Positions 22,014-35,504 of a stretch of DNA of 35,504 nt are shown one piece after another. This DNA is from Candidatus Aminicenantota bacterium (GTDB taxonomy: Bacteria > Acidobacteriota > Aminicenantia > Aminicenantales > Aminicenantaceae). Under the pieces are notes generated by a model that was not told the DNA's origin, searched no databases, and worked only from the letters and a program-made list of their open reading frames with translations. The translations under genes were made by a program, and so were the position numbers. Position 1 is the stretch's first letter; every line of letters starts with the position of its first letter. The DNA lies in NCBI GenBank assembly GCA_030669305.1, contig DAOVDU010000012.1:1-35504 (forward strand), written 5' to 3'.

Positions 22014-22173
22014 CCAAATTCCAAACAAATAAGTTTAAAGTTTAAGGTTTAAAGTATTTATATTTTTAATTTAGTTATTTACCTTAAACATTAAACATTC
22101 AACCTTAAACCCATTTCTATTCTTGCCTTAAACCTTAAACTTTAAACCTTAAACTTATTTGTTTGGAATTTGG
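22014..22173. repeat. 160-bp inverted element built on GTTTAAR/CCTTAAA heptamers (copy 1)
   Basis: The ends are a perfect 25-base inverted repeat (22014-22038 with 22149-22173) starting CCAAATTCCAAACAAATAAG. Inside, 7-base words run in one orientation on the left (GTTTAAA, GTTTAAG, GTTTAAA from 22033) and in the other on the right (CCTTAAA-type words at 22082-22109 and 22126-22153). The element lies between convergent genes, five bases after the M1 gene stop, and could fold as a bidirectional terminator. A related element is at 27084-27190. The remainder, 22174-22278, holds GATAAAC and GGCAGT-type words and no gene. Confidence 0.8.
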
Positions 22174-26936: not shown

Positions 26937-27090
26937 TTCAGTCTATTCGGTTTATCTGGTTTATCTGGGTTTGTCTCCCTCTCACCCCCTCTCCCTGTCC
27001 CTATTCCCCATTTTCTTCTTTGGCAGTATATCTAAGTAGGCAAGACAAACTAAAGGGCAAGACAATAAGGCAAGACAAATTTGGTTTAAA
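26937..27090. repeat. Intergenic repeat patch: GTTTATCTG nonamers and GGCAAGACAA words
   Basis: Nonamer words of the form TTTATCTGG or TTTGTCT run at 26940-26977. A C-rich stretch follows, then three GGCAAGACAA-type words (about 27038-27078), ending in a 22-base sequence identical to 5280-5301. The left and right words are partly inverted (TTTGTCT with AGACAAA), as in the patch at 5219-5302. This begins the gene-free 648 bases of 26884-27531. Confidence 0.7.
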
Positions 27091-27190
27091 GTTTAATGTT
27101 TAAGGTTTAATTTTATTTATTTTTTACCTTAAACCTTCAACCTTAAACCTTCAACCATTTAAATTCTTACCTTAAACCTTCAACCTTAAA
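27084..27190. repeat. Inverted heptamer element (copy 2 of the 22014-22173 family)
   Basis: Four GTTTAAN words in a row (27084-27111) face CCTTAAA/CCTTCAA words at 27127-27154 and 27170-27190. The joining stretch CCATTTAAATTCTTA between the two right-hand arrays corresponds to CCCATTTCTATTCTTG in copy 1, so the elements are related by descent. The distal CCAAATTCC ends of copy 1 are not present here. Confidence 0.75.
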
Positions 27191-27335
27191 CCAGTTACGT
27201 CTTACGGCTTACGATTCTCGGATTTGAGCTTTGAGTTGTTTACTCTTCATTTCTAACCTTTAAAGATGGAAAAAATCACCATGAGAATCATCTCTAAAGG
27301 CTATTTACATGTTTTATCAATTGCCTAGAAAATAG

Positions 27336-32469: not shown

Positions 32470-32959
32470 AAATCTGATATTAGTTGGGTTTATTTTTTCC
32501 TTGAGTGTTGCCTTTTGTTTTGGGGTTGAAAAGGAAAAAGATCAAGAAAATATCCCAAAAAAAACTGTTATAAAGAGCCTTATCAGAAAAGATATGTTGT
32601 TAAGAAATAGAGAAGATCTGAAACCTCCGCGGCGAAACATATTTACTCCCAGAAAGTCTGGAATTAGGAGTGCTGAATATGATCTCCAGCAGAGTGAAGC
32701 CGGACCTGATGCTACGTCTAGAACTGCATCTGAAGGCATAATCTCAGGTATAAACCTAAGTGTGAGATACATCGGATACATAGATTCTGGTCAGAAAATT
32801 GTCGCTGTGATTATTTTTCAGGGAAAAGCCCTTGCTGTAGAAAAAGGAGATGTGATTGCAGAGGGAGCTAATGTTGGAAAGATTACACATGGAGAAATAG
32901 AAATCATCGGGCCAGACTCCAAAGCGAGGAAGTATTCTTTTGAAGGAGAGGAGCTATGA
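32459..32959 (+). CDS. PilP/GspC-like periplasmic connector
   Basis: This 166-residue protein has an N-terminal hydrophobic signal (KNLILVGFIFSLSVAFCFG) without an obvious lipobox. A flexible stretch with PPRRNIFTPRK follows, then a small beta-rich domain (LSVRYIGYIDSGQKIVAVI ... KGDVIAEG) of the PilP / GspC homology-region type that joins the PilNO ring to the secretin. It is shorter than GspC and lacks a PDZ domain. The position between pilO and the secretin gene supports the role. It overlaps the secretin gene by four bases. Confidence 0.75.
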   Translation: MKVKNLILVGFIFSLSVAFCFGVEKEKDQENIPKKTVIKSLIRKDMLLRNREDLKPPRRNIFTPRKSGIRSAEYDLQQSEAGPDATSRTASEGIISGINLSVRYIGYIDSGQKIVAVIIFQGKALAVEKGDVIAEGANVGKITHGEIEIIGPDSKARKYSFEGEEL

Positions 32960-35094
32960 AAAAGATAGCGTTTTTACTAATATTTGCATTGGCCCTTTGG
33001 GGCTGTACAACATTAAGCCAAAGCTATAAGTTGGGTACAGAAGCTGCTCTCAATAAAAATTGGGATGAGGCTGTTAAGCACTATGAGAGGGCTGCTCTTG
33101 AAAATCCCAAGGATTCTGTCTACAGACTCGCCTTGCTCCGTGCAAGAATTGCAGCCAGCTATTCTCATCTCTTTAAAGCCCGCCAACTCGCATCTCAAGG
33201 CAAGAAGGATCAAGCCCTAGCTGAGTATGAGATTGCAATTTCCTATGACCCCTACAACAGGAGGATTGCCGAAGAAGCAAGATGGCTCATGGAGGGTAAA
33301 GTTAAAGAAGAGAAACCAAAGAGAGAGGGGATAGAGCTGCCGGTTAAGCTTCAGGTCAGTCTGGAAAAGATGAGGCTGAAGATTGGAAATGGGGCCACGC
33401 TTCGTTCAATTTTTCAAGCTTTGGGAAAACATGCTCAGATCAACATCCTCTTTGATGAACAGTTCAAGGATAAGCCTTTTTCTATCGATCTCGCTGATAT
33501 GGATTTTGAACAGGCTATAGGTTCTCTCTGCTTAGCCTCTAAAAATTTTTCCAGTATAATAGATGAAAAGACAATTATTGTTGTTCCGGACACGCCTCCA
33601 AAAAGAATCCAGTATGAGGTTAATGCTATCAAGACCTTCTATCTTTCTAATGTCAAAGCCGATGAGATTCGTCCATCTCTCCAACAAATACTGCGCTCTC
33701 AATATAAAATGCCAACTATTATCGTTGATAAAAACTTAAATTCTCTCTCGGTGAGAGATGCACCTGCTGTTATTGAATTAGCAGGGAGATTAATCGACCT
33801 CTGGGATAAGCCAAAAGGGGAAGTCATCATTGATCTAGAAATTATGGAAGTATCCCGTATCAAACTGAAAGAGTATGGCTTGGATTTAAATCAGTATGGG
33901 GTGGGATTAGAATACATCGGGCCTGAGGGGGCAGAAGAGGAAGGTTGGTTCAACCTTAAGAATTTAGATTTTTCCAAATCAGAGAATTTTCTAATCAATC
34001 TGCCTATTTCTTTTTTGAAATTATTAGAGTCAGATTCAGACACCAAAATCATCTCCCAGCCTAGGCTTCGAGGAGTTGATGGTGAAGAAATCAAGTACAT
34101 GGTGGGAGATAAAATTCCTATTCCTAAAACCACCTTTACTCCTATCGCAGCTGGTGGAATCAGCCAACAGCCTGTGACCTCTTTTGACTATGAGGATGTG
34201 GGAATTGATGTCAAGATTACGCCTAAGATCCATTTTGAGAATGAGGTTACCCTGGAATTAGAAATAAACATAAGAGCTATCGGAGGAACAGGATTTGCCG
34301 ACATTCCGATAATTTCCACAAGAGAAGTGAAGAATGTCATCAGGCTTAGGGATGGGGAGACGAACCTGTTGGCTGGTCTACTGAAAGATGAGGAGAGAAA
34401 GTCAGCTAAGGGAATTATAGGGCTTAAAAATATACCCATATTGGGCAGCCTGTTTTCCAGCTCTACTCAGACTATACAGCAGACCGATGTAATCCTGACC
34501 ATTACTCCTCATATTATCCGAAAAGTTGATCTCAGCGAGGACGACCTAAAGCCTCTCTGGTTTAATCTTAAGGGGAGTTTTTCTACAAGTGCAGCGCAGC
34601 GCTCGCCTGAGAGGATGGATGTGCTTGATTCGAGTCAGCAAAGAAGGATAGAAGAGATGAGGAGAAGAGAGGAACCTAGAGGGAACCAAATTTCTTTTAA
34701 TCCTGGCAATTTTGAGGTCGCCCAGAGCAGGGAATTCAGAGTCAGTGTGAATCTTAGAACTGAGGATGAGATCGGGAATATGTCGATAAGCTTATCCTTC
34801 AATGCGCAGGTTCTGACATTGAAGCAAATTGTGGCAGGAGGTCTTGTTTCACGGCTTGGGAAAAATGCACCTTTCTTAAAGAATATTGATAATTCCTCTG
34901 GTATGTGTACTATAGGGATTTCAAGTACAGATTTAAGTAAAGGTTTTAAGGGATCAGGAATGATTGCTTCTTTGGTATTTGTAGCTAAGGCTAAGGGAGA
35001 AAGCGTGATTTCTTTTTCCAATGTTTCCGCAAATGGCCCCTCTGGGAAAGCAGTGAGCTTTGAAACCCGCGAGGCCCGTGTTAGAGTTCGATGA
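32956..35094 (+). CDS. Outer-membrane secretin with TPR-like N-terminus and C-terminal cohesin-like domain (PilQ/GspD family)
   Basis: This 712-residue protein has a lipoprotein signal peptide with a lipobox at Cys17 (ALALWGC). Residues about 20-110 look like TPR-type helices (AALNKNWDEAVKHYERAALENP). An STN/N0-type domain follows (about 130-210), then one N-domain (KTFYLSNVKADEIRPSLQQI), and the secretin core (about 300-530) with VGDKIPIPKTT, VGIDVKITPKIH and IPILGSLFSS. The last 140 residues form a beta-rich cohesin-like domain (FNPGNFEVAQSREFRVSVNL ... SGMIASLVFVAKAKG). Secretins form the outer-membrane exit pore for pili or secreted proteins. A built-in lipobox could replace a separate pilotin. 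The gene is last in the operon; no pilin, prepilin peptidase or pilT gene is in the window. Confidence 0.9.
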   Translation: MKKIAFLLIFALALWGCTTLSQSYKLGTEAALNKNWDEAVKHYERAALENPKDSVYRLALLRARIAASYSHLFKARQLASQGKKDQALAEYEIAISYDPYNRRIAEEARWLMEGKVKEEKPKREGIELPVKLQVSLEKMRLKIGNGATLRSIFQALGKHAQINILFDEQFKDKPFSIDLADMDFEQAIGSLCLASKNFSSIIDEKTIIVVPDTPPKRIQYEVNAIKTFYLSNVKADEIRPSLQQILRSQYKMPTIIVDKNLNSLSVRDAPAVIELAGRLIDLWDKPKGEVIIDLEIMEVSRIKLKEYGLDLNQYGVGLEYIGPEGAEEEGWFNLKNLDFSKSENFLINLPISFLKLLESDSDTKIISQPRLRGVDGEEIKYMVGDKIPIPKTTFTPIAAGGISQQPVTSFDYEDVGIDVKITPKIHFENEVTLELEINIRAIGGTGFADIPIISTREVKNVIRLRDGETNLLAGLLKDEERKSAKGIIGLKNIPILGSLFSSSTQTIQQTDVILTITPHIIRKVDLSEDDLKPLWFNLKGSFSTSAAQRSPERMDVLDSSQQRRIEEMRRREEPRGNQISFNPGNFEVAQSREFRVSVNLRTEDEIGNMSISLSFNAQVLTLKQIVAGGLVSRLGKNAPFLKNIDNSSGMCTIGISSTDLSKGFKGSGMIASLVFVAKAKGESVISFSNVSANGPSGKAVSFETREARVRVR

Positions 35095-35108
35095 ACTCTG
35101 TCAGTCTG

Positions 35109-35368
35109 TTAATCAGTTAGTCGGTTAATCTGTTAGTCTGTTAGTCAGTTGAATATTTTAATTAAAAAAACAGACTAACCGTCTAACTGTTTATCTGTTA
35201 ATCGGTTAATCAGTTGGTCAGTTAGTCGGTTAATCAGTTAGTCGGTTAATCTGTTAGTCTGTTAATCTGTTAGTCAGTTGAATATTTTAATTAAAAAAAC
35301 AGACTAACCGTCTAACTGATTAACCGACTAACTGACCAACTGATTAACCGATTAACAGATAAACAGTT
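35109..35368. repeat. Large palindromic array of TCNGTTAR octamers
   Basis: Octamers of the form TCAGTTAG, TCGGTTAA or TCTGTTAG run in tandem and reappear inverted. A perfect 57-base inverted repeat links 35185-35241 with 35312-35368 around a 70-base spacer. A perfect 53-base direct repeat (35137-35189 and 35266-35318) overlaps both, and the longer copies differ by one inserted octamer. It lies 15 bases after the secretin gene and 42 before the tRNA. It could end transcription of the pilus operon or extrude as a cruciform. Apart from this array, 35095-35410 has no gene. Confidence 0.92.
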
Positions 35369-35410
35369 GAATTGACTTAAGCAGAAGTTTTGGCTAAAAT
35401 CTTTGCTATT

Positions 35411-35484
35411 GGCGGTGTAGCTCAGGTGGTTAGAGCATGCGGCTCATATCCGTAGTGTCGGGGGTTCGACTCCCTCCACCGCCA
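35411..35484 (+). tRNA. tRNA-Met (CAT anticodon)
   Basis: A 74-base cloverleaf: acceptor GGCGGTG pairs with CACCGCC; D-arm GCTC/GAGC; anticodon stem TGCGG/CCGTA with loop CTCATAT, anticodon CAT at 35445-35447 approximately; T-arm GGGGG TTCGACT CCCTC; discriminator A at 35484. CCA is not encoded. The G1:C72 pair and lack of the three GC pairs in the anticodon stem exclude initiator tRNA. Elongator Met fits best; tRNA-Ile2 read with lysidine is the alternative. Confidence 0.93.
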
Positions 35485-35504
35485 CTTAATTCAAAACTCA
35501 AAGC

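Follow-up and report, generated by a model that had tools for sequence, protein, structure and literature searches.

The 57-nt palindrome near the end of the window (the whole stretch of 35,504 nucleotides from a Candidatus Aminicenantota contig that was analysed) is probably one locus of a lineage-restricted, non-coding family of dispersed repeats. We give a probability of about 0.7 to this reading, taken jointly with a history of duplication and template switching at this copy and with the view of the family as a tolerated or selfish spreading repeat, which would be harmless where stop codons are already due. What appeared as a single palindrome thus becomes a defined repeat family with a fixed unit, a fixed polarity, attachment to gene 3' ends and independently varying arms.

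The features of the locus are listed in Table 1. The complete array covers approximately 35097-35375 and ends about 40 nt short of the tRNA-Met gene. The original prediction described a perfect 57-base inverted repeat made of TCNGTTAR octamers and interlaced with a perfect 53-base direct repeat, and both repeats were present. The inverted repeat is the longest perfect one, with a loop of 70 nt, and its arms stretch to 71 nt at 97% identity. TCNGTTAR proved to be a fair consensus of the unit, the N position being mostly A, T or G. The 53-nt direct repeat has an offset of 129, and a second perfect direct repeat of 36 nt (35108-35143 and 35229-35264) has an offset of 121. The two offsets differ by exactly one octamer, which agrees with the predicted difference of one whole octamer between the copies. 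When arrays of 12 + 10 octamers were simulated with the genome's own unit frequencies, none of 300 reached 57 nt, the maximum being 35, and the 57-nt inverted repeat is not due to chance. The RNA folding z-score of the array was -21 relative to shuffles. The secretin encoded upstream has a TPR at its N terminus and a cohesin domain at its C terminus, a combination that merits attention.

Table 1. Positions in the window of the octamer array, its repeats and the two neighboring genes.
Feature	Position	Strand	Remarks
Upstream gene, secretin	32956..35094	+	TPR, Secretin_N, Secretin, C-terminal Cohesin domain
Left arm, first hairpin	35097..35152	+	7 tandem TCNGTTAR octamers; array start, 2 nt past secretin stop codon (35092-35094)
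Conserved centre, copy 1	35153..35166	.	ATATTTTAATTAAA, then AAAACAGA (variant of the family's ATAACAGA)
Right arm, first hairpin	35167..35198	-	4 octamers counted, last two degenerate; truncated by duplication
Left arm, second hairpin	35186..35281	+	12 octamers; overlaps preceding right arm where both copies merge
Conserved centre, copy 2	35282..35295	.	Private A variant identical to copy 1
Right arm, second hairpin	35296..35375	-	About 10 octamers
Perfect 57-nt inverted repeat, left arm	35185..35241	.	
Perfect 57-nt inverted repeat, right arm	35312..35368	.	
53-nt perfect direct repeat, copy 1	35137..35189	+	
53-nt perfect direct repeat, copy 2	35266..35318	+	
tRNA-Met (CAT), downstream neighbor	35411..35485	+	Judged incidental

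The original prediction proposed a search for similar arrays in the genome, and these were found in large numbers. A 16-mer pattern of two consecutive octamers (TCNGTTARTCNGTTAR) had 601 matches in the 2.06-Mb genome (a 122-contig assembly of 91% completeness), compared with 1 for the reversed-pattern control, and a BLAST search with the window element gave 102 matches in its own genome. The family thus amounts to about a hundred copies or more in the genome. In 708,556 sampled bases (0.71 Mb) we counted 88 arrays, a density that does not represent the genome average, as the sample consisted of 40 stretches from contigs known to carry arrays. Fifty of the arrays were simple '+-' arrays, with TCNGTTAR first and YTAACNGA second, 35 had one arm, 3 were composite and none was '-+'; the two-arm arrays thus number 53. 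The usual copy reads (TCNGTTAR)n - ATATTTTAATTAAA - (YTAACNGA)n. Five octamers are the commonest number on either side, so that the modal copy measures 5 x 8 + 14 + 5 x 8 = 94 bp. The centre, which is shared by most two-arm arrays, is AT-rich, 14 nt long and has a one-sided bulge, and within the octamer the GTTA core is nearly invariant, leaving two variable positions (N and R).

At five loci the arms and flanks were nearly identical; copies at unrelated loci thus share entire modules, which shows that modules have been copied as units. Two candidate empty sites were also observed (L152:4394 and L155:1777), where GGCAATCTCAT is joined straight to AGTTTTGA; at filled sites the octamer module lies between them. 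No clear target-site duplication was seen at these two sites, which could also be due to excision or represent an older state.

Some octamer modules occur in larger assemblages. At six composite loci (L151 8264, 10340 and 15512; L152 6115; L159 4963; L162 13211) they adjoin another dispersed palindrome (TGTCATTGCGAG...GCGTGGCAATCTCAT) and TTTTGAG/GGAGTRA heptamers, and the order of these parts recurs. At L154 2792-3116 and L165 7949-8247 the octamer arms are widely separated, with a repeat of about 200 nt (GGCTCATCTCCAAAAGAGTTG...) inside the centre or replacing it. Arrays of period 7 are present as well. Those at 22031-22156 and 27084-27192 of the window run GTTTAAR ... AT-rich centre ... YTTAAAC, head to head, and in the genome sample the GTTTAAR/YTTAAAC arrays were '+-' in 29 cases and '-+' in none. 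For two further 7-nt families in this sample, GGAGTRA and GTAAGCC, the strand bearing stop codons likewise tends to point away from the closest gene (22 v 5 and 16 v 4, respectively).

The long perfect palindrome is not a trait of the family. While its persistence had been taken as meaningful in the original prediction, the arms of the other copies are imperfect, and the window palindrome is an outlier among the 88 arrays, where the next longest perfect inverted repeat is 27 nt. Across the centre, the variable bases matched at 0.25 for N and 0.50 for R, compared with 0.33 and 0.50 in shuffles. Since these bases are unmatched across the centre, exact pairing is not maintained. Both the number and the sequence of the octamers were shown to vary in each arm independently of the other, through slippage and substitution. 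The midpoint of the palindrome (35276.5) is about 14 nt off the midpoint of the centre's TTTTAATTAAAA and is therefore out of register with the conserved centre, suggesting that the palindrome had a separate event of origin.

The simplest history of this copy would have four steps. A substitution would first have arisen in the centre of a hairpin module. A tandem duplication of about 129 bp would have followed; its place after the substitution is indicated by the private A variant, which both copies of the centre carry. In part of the duplicate one octamer would then have been lost or gained, giving the offset of 121. Finally, replication template switching may have copied seven octamers of one arm inversely into the other, producing the perfect 57-nt palindrome. 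Template switching between the arms of quasi-palindromes is documented, and it makes the arms identical, according to the portions of PMC7202029 and PMC8604942 available to us. The one-octamer indels, the 121/129-bp tandem duplication and the out-of-register inverted copy support the earlier proposal that the array grows through slippage of units and through inversion.

An alternative is that the palindrome and the duplication were created by the assembly near a contig end. The contig ends at 35504, only 136 nt beyond the palindrome, and arrays are over-represented at such places: arrays lay within 300 nt of 10 of the 49 contig ends sampled, where 1.8 would be expected. This is also the sole long perfect palindrome among the 88 arrays. 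However, unique sequence lies on both sides (the secretin gene and tRNA-Met), hence there is no terminal fold-back, the private base change in the centre is common to both copies, and the family itself is present at dozens of loci. We consider an artefact unlikely. The genome assembly does break preferentially at octamer arrays, a warning that such arrays break metagenome assemblies.

The arrays follow gene ends. None of the 76 classifiable arrays overlapped a gene. An array was found within 30 nt of 53 of 542 gene 3' ends but of only 10 of 524 5' ends (Fisher P 2e-8), individual distances being approximate because genes were called by a simple codon-usage script. Arrays were present in 34% (23/67) of the convergent gaps, compared with 9% of the tandem and 21% of the divergent ones, and the sequence left over in a convergent gap with an array had a median length of 10 nt. 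Many open reading frames terminate within the first one to three octamers, on a TAR stop, and the array often supplies the stop codon. In one-arm arrays TCNGTTAR points away from the nearest gene, at either gene end, in 29 of 31 cases (binomial ~5e-7); with a stricter array definition the ratio was 32 of 37.

This placement bears on the suggestion that the palindrome has a structural or recombination role tied to the tRNA gene. The array adjoins tRNA-Met, and 4 of the 88 arrays have a tRNA gene no more than 400 nt away. The other 84 do not, however, and the arrays, at least 88 in 0.71 Mb, track gene 3' ends instead. The position beside tRNA-Met looks like chance. Plasmid and phage collections gave no match, and the octamer pattern matched only one viral contig. 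A site of recombination or integration tied to the tRNA gene is thus extremely improbable, and this part of the original prediction was not supported.

The arrays could also be bidirectional transcription terminators, or 3'-end hairpins of the flanking genes, that are kept by selection. The strong enrichment at 3' ends and in convergent gaps agrees with this, since arrays take up almost all of the space from one stop codon to the other, and two-arm copies form stable hairpins, with a median folding z of -7.7. In addition, a Saprospiraceae genome has octamer arms flanking a textbook two-way terminator. However, no intrinsic terminator site (a GC-rich stem followed by a T-tract) was found in the window array, and arrays in the genome sample were not enriched for intrinsic terminators. 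Moreover, 35 of the 88 arrays have one arm and are unstructured (median z of -0.1), and compensatory matching of the arms is absent. A search of the window array against Rfam gave nothing above the gathering threshold, the sub-threshold matches being mostly microRNA-type hairpins. A gene with a Rho_N domain is present in the genome. Taken together, we regard a selected terminator function as improbable. As a possible side effect, a transcribed hairpin would give a stable structure to mRNA 3' ends on either strand.

Binding of a DNA- or RNA-binding protein, with a chromosome-structuring or post-transcriptional role, would account for the regular 8-bp spacing, a unit in which the GTTA core hardly changes while two positions vary, the genome-wide spread and the strict polarity. 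It also has published parallels, as protein binding was proposed for the octanucleotide pairs of Geobacter metallireducens and for the TAACTGA repeats of Beggiatoaceae, in the sections available of PMC2700814 and PMC4679880, respectively. However, copy number per locus varies widely, and the placement follows gene ends rather than promoters or an even spacing, which makes such sites very unlikely. We therefore favour a tolerated spreading repeat and treat the terminator and protein-binding roles as candidate functions.

No mobility machinery tied to the family was found at the two Y1 transposase loci examined. The sequence flanking each locus, about 1.5 kb to either side, contains no octamer arrays, and no link of the REP/REPIN type, with a cognate RAYT, was found. 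Unlike classical MITEs, the elements lack fixed terminal inverted repeats: the number of octamers at their ends varies, and it is the centre that is conserved. These points, together with the lack of a clear target-site duplication noted above, weigh against our main reading.

With regard to its distribution, the element appears confined to this lineage. A 24-nt pattern was missing from 58 of the 59 other relatives listed and had a single match in the remaining one; none was found in the other ~395 genomes drawn from the phylum. The relatives listed included no second genome of the genus, and 'lineage-restricted' is the closest statement possible. A 32-nt pattern, on the other hand, matches many unrelated genomes, and the octamer unit and its polarity recur in Bacteroidales and Saprospiraceae. 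In the Bacteroidales genome RGIG7852, 18 arrays are '+-' and none is '-+'; most lie at 3' ends, and their centres are unrelated. In Saprospiraceae SJ15 (L119 171-362) a perfect two-way intrinsic terminator right after a stop codon has octamer arms on both sides. The first set of foreign loci comprised 22 '+-' arrays and 1 '-+'. As these loci were found with a TCNGTTAR-based pattern, the shared unit is partly a matter of ascertainment, but the polarity is not.

This consistent polarity, also in other phyla, suggests more order than neutral slippage would give, and it counts against the tolerated-repeat view. One dedicated process might build or spread (TCNGTTAR)n arms in unrelated phyla, the arms invariably pointing outward from gene ends and meeting head to head in the gap; such a geometry would be that of fused telomere-like ends or of an enzyme extending free 3' ends by octamers. 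We hold this joint proposal to be a long shot. If it were true, the shared unit and polarity (0 '-+' arrays in the own genome, and 1 '-+' against 22 '+-' elsewhere) would be its signature. The rules of the family hold again in unrelated phyla, where the centres are unrelated, and how short-period intergenic repeats arise and spread thereby becomes a testable comparative question.

Several known repeat systems resemble the octamer family. The short tandemly repeated repetitive (STRR) heptamers of heterocystous cyanobacteria are degenerate short-period intergenic arrays and are alike in array type. They have a period of 7, however, and are not known to form palindromes around a fixed centre. REP/BIME and REPIN elements with RAYT transposases are likewise dispersed intergenic palindromes (PMC3116915, PMC3733652, as far as the available portions describe them), but the octamer family is made of octamer arrays, none of which flank the Y1 transposases of its own genome. 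In the literature on octamer MITEs we found nothing closer than the two systems below.

The first is the TAACTGA direct heptamer repeats of marine Beggiatoaceae, Cyanobacteria and Bacteroidetes (MacGregor 2015, PMC4679880), here compared through the available part of that paper. Their unit is nearly contained in YTAACNGA, and they too are tandem and intergenic, with stop codons in all frames and a patchy distribution over unrelated phyla. TAACTGA points to start codons and, in one case, TCAGTTA points away from a stop codon, which is the polarity of the octamer family relative to genes; here, TCNGTTAR reads away from the gene in 29 of 31 one-arm arrays. By contrast, their period is 7 instead of 8, their unit is exact where ours varies at N and R/Y, and they lie mostly 5' of genes, ours mostly 3'. 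The BOGUAY genome was reported to have only one inverted pair, while most arrays of the octamer family are inverted two-arm arrays.

The second is the paired octanucleotide arrays of Geobacter metallireducens, with the unit GTTGCTYN (class 1) and also TWGTTGAY, as described in the available sections of PMC2700814. They consist of degenerate octamers in tandem, arranged as inverted pairs on opposite strands and present in many copies in a genome, and the same pairing is found here in the 50 of 53 two-arm arrays that are simple '+-'. They were reported as unique to that species when compared with its relative, which is a further resemblance, and both genomes contain more than one period class. 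The Geobacter arrays differ in their units, in having a variable spacer and in being proposed as IHF/HU sites, and gene-end polarity does not figure in those sections. Judged by its sequence features, the octamer family unites those of the TAACTGA repeats and of the Geobacter arrays in one element, to which it adds a fixed centre and placement at gene 3' ends.
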